Below the pieces are notes generated by a model that was not told where the DNA came from, ran no database searches, and saw nothing but the letters and a program-made list of their open reading frames with translations. From an uncultured Chthonomonas sp. (GTDB lineage Bacteria; Armatimonadota; Chthonomonadetes; Chthonomonadales; Chthonomonadaceae), in NCBI GenBank assembly GCA_903859705.1, contig CAIONQ010000125.1, positions 1 through 64,000 on the forward strand: a stretch of DNA of 64,000 nucleotides, read 5' to 3'. Below are positions 34,246 through 51,578 of the stretch, piece after piece. Made by a program: the position numbers and the translations under genes. Numbering within the stretch: position 1 is the stretch's first letter; every line of letters begins with the position of its first letter.

Positions 34246-35040
34246 CTATCCGTAAGCGCCAGTTGGCAAGAAGCCCAACAGCCTTTTGAGCCTCGGGTTT
34301 GCCCCTTCGTAACAATGTGCAGGCATCTGATAGTTCATGAACGGATAGTAGAACGTGTTCACCATTCGGCGCCCATAGCTAACCTGTGTTATGGCACGGT
34401 CTGTATCGCTGGTATTTGGCCCACCCCGGTGCCACACCTGGTTGTTAAACAACACCACACTGCCAGCTGGCCCCAGGCACGAGGTTATCTTTTCTTCCCA
34501 CTTTGTACCCTCCATCGTTGGAGGGCACGGCGCGCCAAAGAGATGGGAGCCGGGTATGAACTGACCGGGTCCGTTGTTCTCTGCCAGCACATCGGTAAGA
34601 TAGTAGTTGGCGGTAAACAGCAGTACTGGCAGGCGAACATTGGTTGGTGGCTCGCCATGCGTTACCAGATAGTGTGGCGCATCATCCTGATGCCAGGTGG
34701 TGATACCACCGCCACCCGTAAACGATTTGAAAGAGTTGTTATGCACAACATGGCAGCTATTGCCGCACAGCGCCTCTGCGAAGCTAACAATAGGTTCCAT
34801 CTCAAATAGCGCCAGGTTGGCGGCGCTTGTTTCGAACATTCTGGGATGCAGAGCAATAATCTTGCCGTTTTCTGAGTACTGGTCCAGTGCGCTATCCAGA
34901 TCGGCGCGCAGCTGAGCCACCATATCTGGCGTCAGCACATTTTTTAGAAAAAGGTATCCATCCCGGTGGAACTGCTCCACCCACGCATTCAGCTGCTCCT
35001 GGCCAACCGTACCATTCGCCAGGTAAGTTACATCTGCCAT
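34246..35040 (-). CDS. Phytanoyl-CoA dioxygenase (PhyH) family protein
   Basis: This is a non-haem Fe(II)/2-oxoglutarate oxygenase of 264 residues. The iron triad is His117 and Asp119 in TWHQDDAPH, with His204 in VWHRGGPNTSD, and Arg215 is placed to bind 2-oxoglutarate. The conserved GPGQFIPGSHLFG loop is present. Bacterial members hydroxylate diverse small molecules. The ATG at 35040 lies 17 bases after the upstream dioxygenase stop and is preceded by GGGGGA and AGGG boxes, so I reject the longer frame. The pair forms an operon divergent from a LysR regulator that probably controls it. Confidence 0.9.
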   Translation of the reverse strand: MADVTYLANGTVGQEQLNAWVEQFHRDGYLFLKNVLTPDMVAQLRADLDSALDQYSENGKIIALHPRMFETSAANLALFEMEPIVSFAEALCGNSCHVVHNNSFKSFTGGGGITTWHQDDAPHYLVTHGEPPTNVRLPVLLFTANYYLTDVLAENNGPGQFIPGSHLFGAPCPPTMEGTKWEEKITSCLGPAGSVVLFNNQVWHRGGPNTSDTDRAITQVSYGRRMVNTFYYPFMNYQMPAHCYEGANPRLKRLLGFLPTGAYG

Positions 35041-35057
35041 AGCCCTAACAATCCCCC

Positions 35058-35801
35058 TTATGCTATCCCTTTGAATCGTGCATCGGCCCACCGCTGGGCA
35101 AACTGAAGCTGCATTACGTAACGAGTTCTATCCGAAGTATTTGGTGCACCACGGTGCCACGTTTGATGGTTGGTGAAATAGATATCGCCTGCCTTGCAGA
35201 GAACGTCGGTAGGGCCAACTCCCTCAAAACAGGGCGTTTCCTGGCTTATAGGTTTGCGGCCGGAGTAGTGGCTGCCAGGCACATATTGTGTTGGTCCGTG
35301 CTCAACGGCATCGATGTCGCTGAGTGCAACCTGCACAGTAAACCAGAATACGGGCATTTTAATGCGGGCATCAAAACGTGGAATATCGGGAGGAAGGGGA
35401 AACTCAAGGACGTCATCCACATGCCACACGCTTATAGCGGTGCCTGGCTCATTTCGGATGACATTCAGTGCATTGAATCTGGCCTGAGGCCCTAGCACTG
35501 CTTCTACCAGCCCCGGGATTGGGCCAGCAGTAAGGCATGCTGCGTACAGCGGATCCAGCTCCGCACAGTATCGCAGCACAAAGGCGTTCATAGCATAGGA
35601 GGCAAACTTAGGCGGTATCTCGGACCTACGGTCAAAGTAGGAATCTGTCTGGTCTCGAAGTGCCTGCACTTCTTGCGGGGTAAACACCCCCGGCACAACC
35701 ACACAGCCTTCACGAGAGAAAATTTCAGCAATCTCTGCGTTTTTTTCTGCGCTGTATCCCTCTGGCGCAGTGGTACTTATTCGGATTGTGGGTTCCGGCA
35801 T
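35058..35801 (-). CDS. Phytanoyl-CoA dioxygenase (PhyH) family protein
   Basis: The 247-residue paralogue or partner of the next gene has the same oxygenase signature: His127 and Asp129 (VWHVDDVLEF), His216 (TWHRGAPNTSDR), Arg225, and GPTQYVPGSHYSG. An AGGAG box seven bases upstream supports the ATG at 35801 over the TTG just before it. Two tandem oxygenases suggest successive oxidation of one substrate or a heteromeric enzyme, but this is inference. Confidence 0.9.
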   Translation of the reverse strand: MPEPTIRISTTAPEGYSAEKNAEIAEIFSREGCVVVPGVFTPQEVQALRDQTDSYFDRRSEIPPKFASYAMNAFVLRYCAELDPLYAACLTAGPIPGLVEAVLGPQARFNALNVIRNEPGTAISVWHVDDVLEFPLPPDIPRFDARIKMPVFWFTVQVALSDIDAVEHGPTQYVPGSHYSGRKPISQETPCFEGVGPTDVLCKAGDIYFTNHQTWHRGAPNTSDRTRYVMQLQFAQRWADARFKGIA

Positions 35802-35941
35802 CAACGCTCTCCTTTGAGACCAACTGGCAACACAGCCTCATTTCTGCGCTGCCAGTGTTATCCCCTGCAAAGTATTGGTGCAAATTGGTTAATGTCCATG
35901 CAACAATCTCGCTCAAGGGTGTAACACGCAGCTATAAGCTT

Positions 35942-43451: not shown

Positions 43452-44261
43452 ATGGAGGCACCCGCAGCCGACATCGGCGTTTTTGGCGGAAGCGGATTCT
43501 ATAGTCTTCTGTCTGGTGTTCAAGAACTAAAGATAGAAACCCCATTTGGCGAACCAAGCGATTCGGTGTTTCTGGCTGAATTTGAAGGCAAGCGTGTTGC
43601 ATTCTTGCCCCGCCATGGCCGCCACCACACCATCCCACCCCACAAAATTAACTATCGGGCCAATGTGTGGGCCATGAAGAGCCTGGGCGTGCGCTACCTC
43701 ATTAGTCCGTGTGCAGCTGGCAGCCTGCAAACCCACGTTAAACCGGAACACTTTGTTGTGTGTGACCAGTTTGTAGACCGCACGCGCGGCCGCCTCGATA
43801 CATTTTACGAGGGGCCAGAGGTGCACCACATCAGCAGTGCCGATCCCTATTGCCCACACCTGCGCAAAATCGCCATCGATGTAATTCGAGAACATGGCAT
43901 CACAGTTCATGAGCACGGAACCGTTGTGGTGGTGAATGGCCCACGCTTTTCTACCCGCTCTGAGAGCCAGTGGTTTACTCGTGCAGGCTGGGAAGTTATC
44001 AGCATGACCCAGTACCCGGAAGGCTACCTTGCGCTGGAACAGGCCATGGCTGTAGTGAACATCGCGCTGATAACAGATTACGACTGTGGGCTGGTTGCGG
44101 AAGGTGAAATTGCGCCTGTTACTCAGGAAGAGGTTTTCTCGGTGTTTCAGAAGAATGCCGAGCGTGTTAAGAATGTGGTGCTGGAGATGATCCGCAGAAT
44201 ACCGCTTGATCTGGATAGCCCGTGCCATCACGTACTGGAAGGCTCTAAAGTAGGCGGCTAA
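43452..44261 (+). CDS. mtnP: S-methyl-5'-thioadenosine phosphorylase
   Basis: MtnP phosphorolyses methylthioadenosine, a by-product of polyamine and ethylene-type pathways, to adenine and methylthioribose 1-phosphate. The 269-residue product has the phosphate-binding start FGGSGFY, PRHGRHHTIPPHKINYRAN, GPRFSTRSESQWF, and SMTQYPEGYLALE with the purine-site region. It is 14 bases after rnc and 29 before mtnA, which uses its product. The adenine could be recovered by apt, also in this window. Confidence 0.95.
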   Translation: MEAPAADIGVFGGSGFYSLLSGVQELKIETPFGEPSDSVFLAEFEGKRVAFLPRHGRHHTIPPHKINYRANVWAMKSLGVRYLISPCAAGSLQTHVKPEHFVVCDQFVDRTRGRLDTFYEGPEVHHISSADPYCPHLRKIAIDVIREHGITVHEHGTVVVVNGPRFSTRSESQWFTRAGWEVISMTQYPEGYLALEQAMAVVNIALITDYDCGLVAEGEIAPVTQEEVFSVFQKNAERVKNVVLEMIRRIPLDLDSPCHHVLEGSKVGG

Positions 44262-44290: not shown

Positions 44291-45415
44291 ATGACAGCCA
44301 CTCCCTCAGGCAACAAGAAGGCACCCATCCAGACGGTAGCATGGTCTTTCGGCAAAGTACGCCTCATCGATCAGACGGCTCTGCCAGATCGTATCGAATT
44401 TATAGAGTACTCCTCATGGAGAGATGTTGTTGAGGCAATACGCACCATGGTGGTGCGTGGTGCGCCCGCCATTGGCTGTACAGCCGCGCTTGGTATGGCG
44501 CTTGGCGCACGTTCTATCATTGCCGAAAGCAGAGAGGCCTTTAAGGCCCGATTCACCGAAATGGCAGATGCCTTCCGGGGGTCGCGCCCAACAGCAGTAA
44601 ACCTGTTCTGGGCCATCGACCGCATGATGGAGATTGTGGATACTCTGCCGGGCAACACAATCGACCTGAAGGACGCCATTGTTGACGAAGCTTTGCGCAT
44701 GCTGGATGAGGATATTGAAACCAACCGCCGCATGGGCCGCTTTGGCGCAGATCTGCTGCCCGATGAGGGAGCCGTGCTAACGCACTGCAATGCTGGTGCA
44801 CTTGCCACGGTGGGTTATGGCACCGCCCTCGGTGTTATTCGGGCGGCGGTAGAGGCTGGCAAAACCATTAAAGTGTATGCCGACGAAACGCGCCCACGAC
44901 TGCAGGGCATGAAGCTTACCGGCTGGGAACTCGCACAGGATGGAATTGATGTAACGGTGATTGCAGACAATATGTCTGGAATGCTGATGCGGCGCGGAGA
45001 CATTGATTGTGTGGTGGTGGGTGCAGACCGCATTGCAAGCAATGGGGATACAGCCAACAAAATAGGCACATACAATGTGGCCGTGCTGGCAGCTCACCAC
45101 GGTATCCCATTCTATGTGGCAGCCCCCTACTCAACCATAGATTTCGCGCTTGAAACAGGCGAAGAGATCCCAATCGAAGAGCGGGATCATGAGGAGATGA
45201 CTCACATAAACGGGCACAGAATTATGCCAGAAGGCGTGCCCACAATGAACCCGTCCTTTGATGTAACTCCTCACGATCTTGTAACTGCGTTCATCACAGA
45301 GCGCGGCATTATCTATCCGCCATTCAAGCAGAACCTGAAACAAGAAGAGGAAACTGAAGAATCTGGCGCTGCCCAGATCGAGGGCGCGAAACCGCATCTT
45401 GCACTTTCCAACTGA
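44291..45415 (+). CDS. mtnA: Methylthioribose-1-phosphate isomerase
   Basis: MtnA converts methylthioribose 1-phosphate to methylthioribulose 1-phosphate in methionine salvage. The 374-residue product contains RGAPAIGCTAALGMALG, the catalytic Cys in LTHCNAGALATVGYGTALG, DETRPRLQGMKLTGWEL, and the catalytic Asp in VVGADRIASNGDTANKIGTY. This set is specific to MtnA rather than to eIF2B-type regulators. It follows mtnP immediately. The later salvage genes mtnB, mtnC and mtnD are not in the window. A hairpin terminator follows. Confidence 0.95.
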   Translation: MTATPSGNKKAPIQTVAWSFGKVRLIDQTALPDRIEFIEYSSWRDVVEAIRTMVVRGAPAIGCTAALGMALGARSIIAESREAFKARFTEMADAFRGSRPTAVNLFWAIDRMMEIVDTLPGNTIDLKDAIVDEALRMLDEDIETNRRMGRFGADLLPDEGAVLTHCNAGALATVGYGTALGVIRAAVEAGKTIKVYADETRPRLQGMKLTGWELAQDGIDVTVIADNMSGMLMRRGDIDCVVVGADRIASNGDTANKIGTYNVAVLAAHHGIPFYVAAPYSTIDFALETGEEIPIEERDHEEMTHINGHRIMPEGVPTMNPSFDVTPHDLVTAFITERGIIYPPFKQNLKQEEETEESGAAQIEGAKPHLALSN

Positions 45416-45480: not shown

Positions 45481-45599
45481 TTGGGTGCTCACTGTACGGT
45501 CACATTGTAAAAATCTGATAGCAATAGGGTAAAAAGGAATCAATGCTGTTTGCCCAATCTGCGGTAACAAATCTGTTGCTGAAATACCCGGTGAAATCT

Positions 45600-48500
45600 A
45601 TGAAAAAGCGCCTGGTTGCTGTCATTGTTCCAATTGTCATTCTGGTGGGTATGGTTGGATTTGTTTCATACAGAAACCGGCCAACAACGCCAGAGGTCTT
45701 CGTTACTCGGGCAGCTGGCCAGCCAGCCGTAACCTGGCACACCATGCAACCTGCCTGGCGCACGCCCACTGGAGATGCGAATACAGGACAGCAGATAGCA
45801 CAGCTTGATATTGTTGACAACATTGCACTTTACATAAACGGCACCACTCTTTATGCACTGGATATACAAACAGGCGAGCCGAAATGGCATAGAGATCTGA
45901 TGCAGGATGGAGCACACGGCAATTCAAACCAGAACCTTGAGGTCCACATCAAATCTGATGAGGATAGCCGCGTTTTTGTTTATGAGCAGTTTGCCGAGTT
46001 CAACTCTGGTGGTGTTTCTCCAACCGCTCAATCCATGGCTGCCTGCCTGGAATTACAAACTGGCAAACCCCTGTGGAAGTCAACTATTGCCGGACCGATT
46101 AGTTCTGAGCCAGCCATTGCCAACAATAATCTGCTTTTTGTAATGGCTTCTGGCGAAGTTACTGCCCTTAACAAAGCAAACGGACAACCTGCCTGGCGAA
46201 AGCTGATAAGCAGAACGTTGATGAGCATTCCGCAGAACGTAGTGCCACCCCGAAATGAGGTGAAGTTTGCAGGCGGTATTTGCATTGCAAGGGTTGGCGG
46301 CAAGCATTACCTCCGATTGGATCCGGACACGGGGGCAAAAATCTGGTCTGCATCGGTAAGTGCTGAAGAAAACATGGATGAGAGCCTCAGCAATAGTGGC
46401 ATCAACTACATGGTGGTATCCCAATCCGGAGTGTTCATCCTCAATGACTACTACACGGCGCTCAACCCAACAAACGGCAAGCCGCTCTGGGAAGCTCAAG
46501 CTCCAGATGGGCTTTCGTTATCTGGCCAAATCCAGACGCCAATACTCACAGAAAACGATGTAATCTTTATCAACGGCAGTAAGTTAGAAGCGTATAACAG
46601 AATTACCGGCAAGCCGCACTGGGCCAGGGAGTTCAAGAATCCTCAAGGTGACTTCGGCATCAATATCAGCCAGCTAACCTGGGACAGATTGGATCCGACG
46701 CACCGTTGCCTTTATATGGTTGGCCAGACGAATACGCCTGTAGTGCACCGCAAAATTCTGCCATCTCGCGCTGTGTCGGACATTGGTATCCAGATCGCAA
46801 TAGACCCGGCCACTGGCAAGGAGCTGTGGCGCGCTATGCTGCCAGATCTGTTTCCTTCGGCAGCAATAGTTGCTGGCAACAAGGTATTTGGCTGTGATGG
46901 TTCAACCACCGCTGTTGCCGAAGCACACTCCCCGGCAGTTTCATTTTCTATGCTGCGTGGTGAACGGCAATCGATGGCGCGCCGCATGCTGCAGATATCT
47001 ACTGTCTGGCAACCTGGTGCAGAATCCTTTATAAGCAGGCTGATTAGCAGGATCTTTTCCGGAACCAGCAACCATGCAAGCAAAGCAACTACCAGCGAAA
47101 CGCGTGCAGCGCTCACCATTTTGCAGCTTGGAAAAGATAGCACACCGGCCCTTACCGAGATGCTGGAATCGGCAGTGAGTATTGCGGATAAATTGAACCT
47201 TTCTACAGATCAGCTGCTGGAATCTAGCTTGTTATCTACCTCAATGGGCTATATCTGTGATGTTAACGATCCTGATATTGAGCCTGTAATACTCCGTATG
47301 TTTGCGGCCAAACACAAACCGGGCACACTGGCAGCGCTGGCTTCCATTTTGGTACAGCTAAACACTGGCAGGGCTTTTAACGCCCTGTTTACCTATGCGA
47401 AGACCTGTACCGATGCCGACTTTGCTACCGGGGAGGCTGCACTGTACTACATCTGCAGATTCGCACCACAAACAGGCGGTGCCTCACCGGTTACGCAACA
47501 GCAGGTTACCTCCTATTTAATGAGCACCCTGAACGACCCAAATGCCGCGGCCTGGATCAAACGGTTTGCCTGTTTCGAGCTGGCACACAACCGGGGTACG
47601 GCGGAGCTTGAGGCGGCACGAAACGTGGTTAGGGCCGTGCCTTCCACGCGGTTAATGCCAGACTTTGCCACACTGAAGTCAAGCTTCGGTGCCGGCTCCG
47701 GCATCAACACCCTGCGGACAGCGCCAATTGCTCAGGTTAAGTGCCCGGATGGCAAGCTCCGTGGTCTCTTCCTTGCATCTTATTTCAGCAACCGAGACCT
47801 GTGGCTGGCAGACTCTTTGGATGGGAAACAGTGGAAACATCCGGTGCTTGTTGAGCCAAACAACCGGTATAGTGAAGCCTCCTGCGAGCTTACTGTAGCA
47901 AGTAAGGCACCGTTGAGGCTGCACTTCAGCGGTTTGAAAGTTAGAAACGCCACTTCTGATGATATTGATGTTGCAGCCCTTACAATAGACAGTGATGGAG
48001 ATGGAATACCAGATCACACCGAACAGCAGCTTGGCCTGAGCCCCAGTACAAAACAGACCCAGGGCACGTTTGTTCCAGATGCGTTTAATCTGGTTCCTCA
48101 ATACCATGTTCGTAAACTCACCGAACAGGAGCAGATATTTTCTGCTCTGGTCTCCGCACTTGCCCAGTATCTTCAATTGACCCACCGGTTTAAGCCAACG
48201 GTGCCTACCCAGCTTTCGGACTTTCTGACCAGCCGTGGATGTCTGGTTCCATGTATGGGCCCTGCAAACAGGCCGGTGCCTGTGGAAAGTACCGACGTCC
48301 CCGTGATTTTCCCTCAAGGTGACTATGTGTCATCAAGTGTAGTATTTCTTACTTCAGGCCAAAATGAGGCGGGGTTTGCTAAATCAAACTCAATTAATTT
48401 CCGGGTCAGTATGGGGTATAGCTGGTTTGCGCCAGGAAATTACTCCGTACCCTATTCGTTGAGCAAAGATGGAAATTCGGCGCGTGTTTGTGCTGCGCTA

Positions 48501-48635
48501 ACGGGATCAGATCGGCCGGTATTTGAAATTGAAGTGCGGAGAGTGGCAGGGAAGTGGATACCTGCTGAGTGCCGGCTCATGACAGAGAACCGCCAGAGCT
48601 ATGCACGATGCCCCGCACCAATAGCTACGCCCTAG
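45600..48635 (+). CDS. Exported PQQ-like beta-propeller protein with calcium-binding repeat
   Basis: The product of about 1011 residues begins with a signal anchor (KKRLVAVIVPIVILVGMVGFV). Seven PQQ-like propeller repeats follow (GEPKWHRDL, GKPLWKST, GQPAWRKL, GAKIWSAS, GKPLWEAQ, GKPHWARE, GKELWRAM), as in BamB-type and alcohol-dehydrogenase-like proteins, then a helical middle region. A thrombospondin type 3-like calcium motif (DSDGDGIPDHTEQQLGLSP, about residue 800) precedes a C-terminal beta domain. An upstream ATG at 45543 with AAGGA is an alternative start. No PQQ-enzyme active site is visible, so a structural or ligand-binding role is more likely. Confidence 0.75.
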   Translation: MKKRLVAVIVPIVILVGMVGFVSYRNRPTTPEVFVTRAAGQPAVTWHTMQPAWRTPTGDANTGQQIAQLDIVDNIALYINGTTLYALDIQTGEPKWHRDLMQDGAHGNSNQNLEVHIKSDEDSRVFVYEQFAEFNSGGVSPTAQSMAACLELQTGKPLWKSTIAGPISSEPAIANNNLLFVMASGEVTALNKANGQPAWRKLISRTLMSIPQNVVPPRNEVKFAGGICIARVGGKHYLRLDPDTGAKIWSASVSAEENMDESLSNSGINYMVVSQSGVFILNDYYTALNPTNGKPLWEAQAPDGLSLSGQIQTPILTENDVIFINGSKLEAYNRITGKPHWAREFKNPQGDFGINISQLTWDRLDPTHRCLYMVGQTNTPVVHRKILPSRAVSDIGIQIAIDPATGKELWRAMLPDLFPSAAIVAGNKVFGCDGSTTAVAEAHSPAVSFSMLRGERQSMARRMLQISTVWQPGAESFISRLISRIFSGTSNHASKATTSETRAALTILQLGKDSTPALTEMLESAVSIADKLNLSTDQLLESSLLSTSMGYICDVNDPDIEPVILRMFAAKHKPGTLAALASILVQLNTGRAFNALFTYAKTCTDADFATGEAALYYICRFAPQTGGASPVTQQQVTSYLMSTLNDPNAAAWIKRFACFELAHNRGTAELEAARNVVRAVPSTRLMPDFATLKSSFGAGSGINTLRTAPIAQVKCPDGKLRGLFLASYFSNRDLWLADSLDGKQWKHPVLVEPNNRYSEASCELTVASKAPLRLHFSGLKVRNATSDDIDVAALTIDSDGDGIPDHTEQQLGLSPSTKQTQGTFVPDAFNLVPQYHVRKLTEQEQIFSALVSALAQYLQLTHRFKPTVPTQLSDFLTSRGCLVPCMGPANRPVPVESTDVPVIFPQGDYVSSSVVFLTSGQNEAGFAKSNSINFRVSMGYSWFAPGNYSVPYSLSKDGNSARVCAALTGSDRPVFEIEVRRVAGKWIPAECRLMTENRQSYARCPAPIATP

Positions 48636-48749
48636 AAGCCTGACTGCCTGAAAAGAGACTCGATAAAGGATTTATTATCTGCCGTGTCATAACTTGCTCC
48701 AACATGCTCAGTACCACAACTGAGCCAACGGTTTGCCGGAGAATCAACC

Positions 48750-48791
48750 ATGAGCAGTGTGGCCGTGCTAACTCCCGATCAAAAAGAGTAA
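48750..48791 (+). pseudogene. 5' end of a PhyH gene cut off by an in-frame TAA
   Basis: An ATG at 48750 with a GGAGA box upstream opens a frame reading MSSVAVLTPDQKE, then TAA at 48789-48791, then FYRDGYLKFGRVIDDQ, continuous with the dioxygenase frame that follows. The segment on both sides of the stop fits the usual PhyH N-terminus, in which the stop position would be Gln or a similar residue. A single base change (for example CAA to TAA) explains it. Confidence 0.8.
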
Positions 48792-48809
48792 TTTTACCGG
48801 GATGGGTAT

Positions 48810-49619
48810 TTGAAGTTTGGCAGGGTGATAGATGACCAGACGGTAGAGCAACTGCGCAGTGCGCTGGATAACACGATTCAGGAAGAGCTTACGCGAGAAG
48901 ACTACTCTGGACTACCGCCCGAGTTTGCCTTTGGGCACGATAGGCGCGGTGAGGATGGTTCACGCCCTGTGCGCGCAATCCATCAGTTTGTGAATATGTG
49001 GAAGGTATCTCCAGAGTTTGCGCAGGTGATGCACAACCCACTTATCACGGGCGCTATTCGTGAACTGATGGAGACACAGGACATTCGGCTGTGGCACGAT
49101 CAGGTTATTTCCAAACCACCCGGCGATAATGGCCACTTTGCATGCCATCACGATTTTTATTTCTGGCCCCTGGATAGGCCATCCATGATAACATGCTGGT
49201 TAGCGCTGGACGAGGCCACGCCGGAGAATGGCTGCATGCATGTTGTGCCGGGTAGCCACCGCGATCCACGTTACCAGCCAATAACGGCGGAGCTTACAGA
49301 GGATTTGCACCTATCACCCGCCCCACCTGGCCCGGGCGAGCCCGGCAGCCTTTACAACGATATCCGCACATGGATGCCGGAAAAAACAAAGCCTGTTGTG
49401 CTAAAGGCCGGGGAGTGCATGTTTCATCACTGCCTGAACTGGCACCTTACGCCGCATAATAGCACAAACAATCAGCGCAGGGCATTTGTAACCATATTTA
49501 TGCCGGATGGTGCGCGCTATAAGCACGATCAATCTCCGAACCACCCGTGCACTTCGTACCTGCATCTGGCCGATGGGGCCAAAATGGAGGGTCCGAATTT
49601 CCCTTTGTGCGGTGTGTAG
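48810..49619 (+). CDS. Phytanoyl-CoA dioxygenase family protein, N-terminally disrupted
   Basis: The frame from the TTG at 48810 gives 269 residues with an intact oxygenase core: HxD at His113 and Asp115 (ACHHDFYFWPLD), the MHVVPGSHRDP loop, the distal histidine in LNWHLTPHNSTNNQRR, and an Arg for 2-oxoglutarate. The natural start lies at 48750 but is separated by a TAA codon (see the 48750-48791 entry). The protein may therefore be lost, made from TTG by re-initiation, or restored if the TAA is a sequencing error. Its last 91 bases overlap the convergent GH16-like gene. Confidence 0.8.
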   Translation: MKFGRVIDDQTVEQLRSALDNTIQEELTREDYSGLPPEFAFGHDRRGEDGSRPVRAIHQFVNMWKVSPEFAQVMHNPLITGAIRELMETQDIRLWHDQVISKPPGDNGHFACHHDFYFWPLDRPSMITCWLALDEATPENGCMHVVPGSHRDPRYQPITAELTEDLHLSPAPPGPGEPGSLYNDIRTWMPEKTKPVVLKAGECMFHHCLNWHLTPHNSTNNQRRAFVTIFMPDGARYKHDQSPNHPCTSYLHLADGAKMEGPNFPLCGV

Positions 49620-50398
49620 TCTGTACTGTGCCCTACTTTTTTTTGAGAGGCGCCTGCGGCAGTAAATTGGAAGCTGCGTATTACAACTTCTGCCTCTTTA
49701 CCATCTGCAGGTGCCATGCCCCGAAATAGCCAGAAGTTGATTAGCACCGATTCGGGATCCTGGCTGATTCTACGATCTGAGTTTTCCGGCCTGTAACTCC
49801 AGGCATCCAGTGGGGTTGGCTTGCCCTTAAGGCCAAAAGTGCTTGAGGCGAAGGCCACGCGATCGGTTTGCCACTTAAATTGATGGGTGAACAGTTTGGC
49901 GCCGGCCGGAATCTGAAATGTGCGGGAACCATGTGGCTCGCCTTCTTTAGCTGGCCAAACGGTGAAGTTCCCCGCAGGCGCAGCATCCTGACCCCAGCGG
50001 GCTATTTCGATATCAATTTCATGGGTGCCATCTGGACCAACATCTGCGGTGGGGTAGTTAAACAGGCCCAATACCACGTTTCGATCCAGATCCCCTGTTG
50101 TGTTCTCAACTTCAAAACCGTATGTGCCGAAGCCAAACCGCTTTAAAGACCTCACCTCGGCGCATTGCCACTTGCCACCCAGGTTAGTTATGCGCAGATG
50201 CAGCCTGCCTTTAGAATCCACCCGCACATTTTCGGGCTTCCAGATGTTGGGGCCTGGCCCCATACTCTCCGAGCTCTTCACTGCCCATTCGTACCCTGCA
50301 AACCGAATGTGCTGCTCGGTATCTGCATGCAGTGCGTTTGCCGGCATGAGCGCCCAAAGGGCTGCAGCAGCCTGCACAATGCCTTTTTTAGTAAACAT
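49529..50398 (-). CDS. Secreted GH16-like glycoside hydrolase
   Basis: The 289-residue product has a signal peptide (MFTKKGIVQAAAALWALMPA, cleavage after ALHA) and a concanavalin A-like jelly roll. The glycoside hydrolase family 16 catalytic motif is HEIDIE (Glu127, Asp129, Glu131). GH16 enzymes cleave beta-1,3/1,4-glucans or galactans; the substrate here is unknown. Its ATG lies inside the last 11 bases of the upstream mannonate-dehydratase-like gene, so the two are coupled. The final 30 residues, encoded antisense to the third dioxygenase gene, look like an unrelated extension. Confidence 0.8.
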   Translation of the reverse strand: MFTKKGIVQAAAALWALMPANALHADTEQHIRFAGYEWAVKSSESMGPGPNIWKPENVRVDSKGRLHLRITNLGGKWQCAEVRSLKRFGFGTYGFEVENTTGDLDRNVVLGLFNYPTADVGPDGTHEIDIEIARWGQDAAPAGNFTVWPAKEGEPHGSRTFQIPAGAKLFTHQFKWQTDRVAFASSTFGLKGKPTPLDAWSYRPENSDRRISQDPESVLINFWLFRGMAPADGKEAEVVIRSFQFTAAGASQKKVGHSTDYTPHKGKFGPSILAPSARCRYEVHGWFGD

Positions 50399-51578
50399 GC
50401 ATGGTTCCATCTGCGCGCCGTACCAGCGGCATCCAGGCTTGCTTGTATGGGTATGCTGCCGCCTTCTCTTCATCTATATCAATTCCAAGGCCAGGTTTCT
50501 CTGAGGGCGTAATGAATCCTGATTTCATTTCGCAGGTGCCGCTAACCACATCATAGGTGGCGTCCGGGTAGCGGGTCCACTCCTGTACGCCAAAATTTGG
50601 GATAACACTCTGCAGCGCAACACTTGCCGCCTGTGCCACCGGGCCGATATCTGCTGCGCCATGAAACGCAGAGCGGACATTATATGGCTCGGCCATAATC
50701 ATGATTTTGCGCGCCTCTGTTAGGCCACCAACATGCAGGGGTTTGATGCGTATAAAATCTATCCAGTGGTTCTGGAAGAGTGGCAGGCAATCCCAACGCG
50801 AGGTGATTATTTCACCGATGGCGAGTGGCGTTGTGGAGGCGGCACGCAGTATGGGCCAGGATTCCCGATGCTCCGGCATCAACGGATCCTCGAGGAAGAA
50901 GAGGCGGTACTGCTCAAGCTCCTTAGCAAGCCTTGCAGCCTCGATGGGGCTGAGTTGTTCATGCACATCGTGGAAGAGCTCAATTTCATTGCCAAGCTTT
51001 TCGCGCAGATGTTTGAACATTGCAGGCACACTCAACAGATAGGGTGTTGGCTCGTAGATCTGTTCGGGTGGTGTGCCTGGCGACATCGGTGGATTGAGGC
51101 CCAGTACTCCGGCTCCGCCATAAACGCCAACCTGGCACCGCACCACTTTAAAGCCCTGCTCCATTAGCTGCCGGGCGCTATCTTCGGTTTCTACAACGTC
51201 TTTACCGAAGGCATGGCTGTAGCACATAACGCTATCTCGCGCTTTGCCGCCCAGTAACTGGTACACGGGCAAATTGGCCTGCTTGCCTTTGATATCCCAC
51301 AGTGCAAAATCGATGGCAGCCTGCGCGGCCGCAAATATGGGCCCGCCGCGCCAATAGGCGTGCCGATAAACTAGGTGCCAGATATCTTCAATCCTCTGTG
51401 GATCACGGCCAATAAGCAGGGGCGCAATGTGGCGTAACGCTTCTGCAACCACCGGCTCGCTGCCATTCAAGGTACCTTCACCCACGCCATACAGCCCCGG
51501 AACATCGGTATAGATCTTAAGAAAAACGTAGTTCCTGCCCGGGCACGTGACGATAACCTTTACATCTGTAATTCGCAT
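50388..51578 (-). CDS. Mannonate dehydratase-like enolase-superfamily protein (ManD/RspA type)
   Basis: The 396-residue product fits the ManD/RspA group of sugar-acid dehydratases. Features are RCQVGVYGG, the metal-binding FHDVHEQLSP, FFLEDPLMPEH and AIGEIITSRWDC, the catalytic loop FHGAADIGPVAQAAS, and NFGVQEWTRYPDATYDVV. These enzymes dehydrate D-mannonate or D-gluconate to 2-keto-3-deoxygluconate, although many members have low activity. Overlap with the GH16-like gene suggests a small polysaccharide- or uronate-use unit. Specificity is inferred. Confidence 0.88.
   Translation of the reverse strand: MRITDVKVIVTCPGRNYVFLKIYTDVPGLYGVGEGTLNGSEPVVAEALRHIAPLLIGRDPQRIEDIWHLVYRHAYWRGGPIFAAAQAAIDFALWDIKGKQANLPVYQLLGGKARDSVMCYSHAFGKDVVETEDSARQLMEQGFKVVRCQVGVYGGAGVLGLNPPMSPGTPPEQIYEPTPYLLSVPAMFKHLREKLGNEIELFHDVHEQLSPIEAARLAKELEQYRLFFLEDPLMPEHRESWPILRAASTTPLAIGEIITSRWDCLPLFQNHWIDFIRIKPLHVGGLTEARKIMIMAEPYNVRSAFHGAADIGPVAQAASVALQSVIPNFGVQEWTRYPDATYDVVSGTCEMKSGFITPSEKPGLGIDIDEEKAAAYPYKQAWMPLVRRADGTMHVY

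Follow-up and report, generated by a model that had tools for sequence, protein, structure and literature searches.

We asked whether an in-frame stop codon close to the start of a dioxygenase gene in an uncultured Chthonomonas sp. is a real change in the organism, and whether any enzyme could still be made from the interrupted gene. The gene lies in the window (the whole stretch of DNA that was analysed, 64,000 nucleotides), which belongs to a 6.24-Mb genome of 179 contigs with a completeness of 95.66%, probably a metagenome bin.

A single stop codon interrupts an intact PhyH-type gene

The dioxygenase frame (48750-49619, + strand) starts with ATG, ends with TAG and, when translated, contains one internal stop. 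It reads MSSVAVLTPDQKE up to this stop and FYRDGYLKFG... after it, and the sole interruption is the TAA at codon 14 (Table 1), which confirms by translation what an earlier note on this DNA had claimed. The same note had placed a ribosome-binding site before the ATG and had held that the frames on the two sides of the stop jointly make up a PhyH N-terminus. Both points agree with our results: the GGAGA motif is present at the expected place, where its duplex with the anti-Shine-Dalgarno sequence has an energy of -6.6 kcal/mol (equalled at 5.1% of the sampled window positions), and the 13 leading codons match the N-terminus of the orthologues. A scan of 48550-49000 for sigma-70 promoters and terminators returned none of either. 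The ORF caller reported only 48810-49619 with a TTG start (269 aa), and the gene as called in this way is probably not the natural protein.

Several readings of the locus were rejected. A chance arrangement of ORFs was excluded by homology on both sides of the TAA, a frameshift by the reading frame being kept on either side of the stop, and an unrelated leader peptide by the match of the 13 codons to the N-terminus of the enzyme. At the other end of the gene, the 3' end of a convergent ORF (49529-50473, - strand), for which no Pfam match was found at E 0.001, covers the last 91 bases.

Table 1. Features at the 5' end of the dioxygenase gene (window coordinates)
Feature	Position	Strand	Observation
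Shine-Dalgarno-like GGAGA	48738-48742	+	7 nt before the ATG at 48750; seen in the sequence
First 13 codons, N-terminus of the dioxygenase gene	48750-48788	+	match orthologue N-termini in the same frame
In-frame TAA, codon 14	48789-48791	+	sense codon in 57/57 distinct relatives; in the middle of helix 9-18 in the model
Remaining PhyH-type dioxygenase frame, intact	48792-49619	+	275 codons and TAG; PF05721 match
TTG, earliest possible re-initiation codon after the TAA	48810-48812	+	in frame, 18 nt past the TAA

The frame after the stop matched PF05721 (PhyH) along the complete profile (1-213 of 213, E 1.3e-32), and the score of 114.3 bits, over the curated cut-off of 22, corresponds to a full-length domain. 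As this match starts at the codon immediately 3' of the TAA, a check based on Pfam domains misses the stop. H133 (49146), D135 (49152), H232 (49443) and R243 were all present and were invariant in 28 aligned sequences; following the pattern of the HxD...H fold, we take the first three to be the Fe ligands, and R243 to be the 2OG-binding Arg. The claim that the rest of the gene is intact, iron ligands included, was thereby borne out, and, judged by domain and motif, the predicted product is a PhyH-type Fe(II)/2-oxoglutarate dioxygenase. The predicted structure had a mean pLDDT of 79.5, with values of 92-98 across residues 11-30, and helix 9-18, which contains the TAA codon, and strand 20-25 fall in its confident part. 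The nearest solved structures, SnoK (5epa) and MysH (9c9n), have the same fold (Foldseek E about 1e-17) and share the whole Pfam domain and the HxD...H pattern with the window protein, whereas identity over the aligned fold is only about 22-23% and the early stop is a feature of the window gene.

All compared relatives have a sense codon at the position of the stop

Does this stop occur in related genes? The codon was read in every relative above about 47% identity that the searches yielded as a locus, with the start positions for the N-terminal alignment set by hand. Loci L009-L015 and L038-L044, apparently duplicate records, were counted once, and the close relative L044 (G036), labelled Actinomycetota, was placed in the phylum of the window. 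A sense codon was found at the TAA position in all 57 distinct homologous genes. The eight genes of the Armatimonadota clade (64-74% identity) had AGC, CAG, AAG, CGG, AAG, CAG, CAG and GGG, and the 49 genes from Poribacteria/Caldilineaceae had TTT, TTC, TAT or TAC.

The genus contains one further genome (G001, locus L038), in which the PhyH gene directly follows mtnP and mtnA. Two genes that are presumably mtnP and mtnA (43452-44261 and 44291-45415) also precede the PhyH gene in the window. Because the mtnP-mtnA-PhyH order is common to both genomes, the window gene is the positional orthologue of the G001 gene, and this orthology is firm. In the window, mtnA and the PhyH gene are separated by a PQQ-repeat gene (45543-48635, + strand, 1030 codons), which has no real counterpart in the genus mate (best E 4.1e-4). 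When the genus was searched at the DNA level, the hits were limited to the genome of the window and to a single genus mate (71%), and the locus of this species was not found a second time. A 30-base pattern that spanned the TAA and allowed any codon there had no match in viral contigs.

Within the genome itself, none of the 27 PhyH matches and none of the 73 ABC matches contained an internal stop. In 26 of the 27 PhyH genes the open frame includes a start codon before the domain, and the dioxygenase gene was the only one that lacked it. Among the genes checked, the dioxygenase stop is an isolated event. Two more PhyH genes stand in tandem in the window (34246-35091 and 35058-35804, both - strand), their ORFs overlapping by 34 bases.

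The gene has not decayed further

We then asked how old the stop could be. All 74 residues that are invariant among 27 relatives are kept in the window gene, as are 124 of the 126 residues invariant among seven close relatives. Because the dioxygenase gene showed no second stop, no frameshift and no loss of conserved sites, the stop is, judged from the sequence, a recent event at most and not the mark of an established pseudogene. In a tree of 12 sequences the end branch of the window gene (0.14) was the shortest of the six unresolved end branches of its clade, the other five measuring 0.18-0.30. Branch length and kept residues were used in place of dN/dS, which was set aside on account of saturation at synonymous sites in the comparison with the nearest relative (pairwise NG86: dN 0.21, dS not computable).

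When free drift was simulated, the chance of keeping the 124 residues without a new stop was 0.21 at 0.5% divergence and 0.06 at 1%, and none of 2000 runs did so at 2%. The best reading is that the nonsense change is younger than about 1% neutral divergence, a figure that is approximate since the 124 simulated residues were chosen as already kept. The count of further stops alone gave a looser 95% bound on divergence of about 0.11. The absence of decay means that the stop is very young, or that it is absent from the living population, or that the protein is still made.

Recent mutation or consensus error

Which of these is the case at codon 14? With slightly better than even confidence, we favour a real, very recent nonsense mutation in a normal, vertically inherited PhyH gene. 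This claim rests on one consensus base in one assembly, and conservation up to the stop is expected equally if that base is simply wrong. Since all 57 relatives have a sense codon and other decay is lacking, the data fit a recent nonsense mutation and an assembly error equally well; these are two of the three explanations that the earlier note had named, and both stand. In the case of an error, the population would have the sense codon, and a single base would have been miscalled or taken from a rare variant. We consider this rather unlikely, though it deserves to be taken seriously: the remainder of the gene is free of decay, and the assembly is one of 179 contigs and incomplete. The lack of internal stops in the 100 PhyH and ABC matches bears on the matter in both directions, as real disruptions look rare in this genome and a high rate of base errors is equally argued against. 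Moreover, the frame is correct on both sides of the TAA, which does not agree with an error of the indel type. A paper search on nonsense errors from metagenome assembly gave no result.

Belinky et al. 2021 (PMC7918605) describe in-frame stops as widespread in bacterial genes, most of them lasting no longer than population polymorphisms do. The dioxygenase stop resembles those stops in that a single nonsense codon is found in a conserved gene, with no sign of relaxed selection and with relatives that do not have it. That study focused on stops present in at least two species to limit artefacts, whereas the dioxygenase stop is present in one genome only, so that an artefact is harder to exclude. 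The stop fits this known and widespread class of short-lived in-frame stops, and no new mechanism is supported.

If the nonsense mutation is real, codon 14 would have turned into TAA very recently in the sequenced lineage, and translation would begin at the ATG and stop after 13 residues. The enzyme would then be lost, or made in trace amounts via leaky re-initiation at the TTG or via rare readthrough. We infer that the cells truly carry the TAA, as opposed to the consensus being wrong, and that expression is reduced. In this event the locus would capture the onset of the loss of an enzyme gene, or an allele of low expression, in a lineage of Armatimonadota; otherwise the stop matters only for annotation, through the 269-aa TTG-start call.

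Can the enzyme still be made?

One route would be re-initiation at the TTG after translation of the 13-codon leader, which would yield a protein without residues 1-20 at lower expression. The position of this codon, in frame and shortly after the stop, would allow it, and the G-rich stretch upstream of the TTG pairs with the anti-Shine-Dalgarno sequence as well as the natural site does (-7.0 versus -6.6 kcal/mol). The frame downstream of the TTG is fully conserved. At the next candidate start, GTG at 48825, upstream pairing is weak (-2.8). Yet the G-rich match lies close to the TTG, and a match of equal strength occurs at 4.1% of the sampled positions. The leader still resembles the N-terminus of the family, where drift would be expected under long use of the TTG, and in the structural model a TTG start would delete helix 9-18 together with the first residue of strand 20-25. 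Programmed re-initiation also finds no support in the relatives, none of which shares the arrangement (the stop occurs in 0 of 57). Since F15, G19 and Y20, which are invariant (28/28) and are kept in the window gene, lie before the TTG, it is improbable that this codon has long served as the start.

We therefore retain only part of the earlier proposal of re-initiation at this TTG: as an established mode of expression it is weakened by the three kept residues, while weak re-initiation as a leaky rescue is possible. As an explanation of the locus, re-initiation seems to us improbable. Termination-reinitiation in archaea and bacteria is the subject of PMC6728339. The dioxygenase gene resembles such arrangements in having a stop shortly before a possible start. 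It differs from them in that its stop and start do not overlap and that the intervening DNA encodes the conserved N-terminus of an enzyme instead of a spacer. It is highly improbable that recent selection has favoured the TAA as an expression damper, with the leader and TTG re-initiation, or low readthrough, providing a small and useful amount of enzyme.

We give hardly any credence to the possibility that readthrough or recoding of the TAA yields the full-length enzyme. In its favour, the whole reading frame is conserved before as well as after the TAA, and Belinky et al. (PMC7918605) suggest that readthrough is frequent in bacteria. On the other hand, no UUA anticodon was found among 44 tRNAs (Rfam; anticodons by ARAGORN) in this ~96% complete assembly, from which a tRNA may be missing; 23 of the window's 44 long non-overlapping ORFs end in TAA, and the stop is common to no relative. 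The genome also has two genes of the release factor family (PCRF). They are presumably RF1 and RF2, which each terminate translation at UAA. Reassignment of TAA, already judged unlikely in the earlier note, is contradicted by the ORF ends, the tRNA set and the two release-factor-type genes. Selenocysteine recoding was excluded, as the codon is TAA and not TGA; SelA and a tRNA-Sec candidate are present, but the anticodon of the latter (tca) corresponds to UGA. This candidate (L138, 69-167) lies about 1.2 kb from the SelA gene (E 1.5e-121; L194) on contig C149, and the Armatimonadota genome of the window probably makes selenoproteins.
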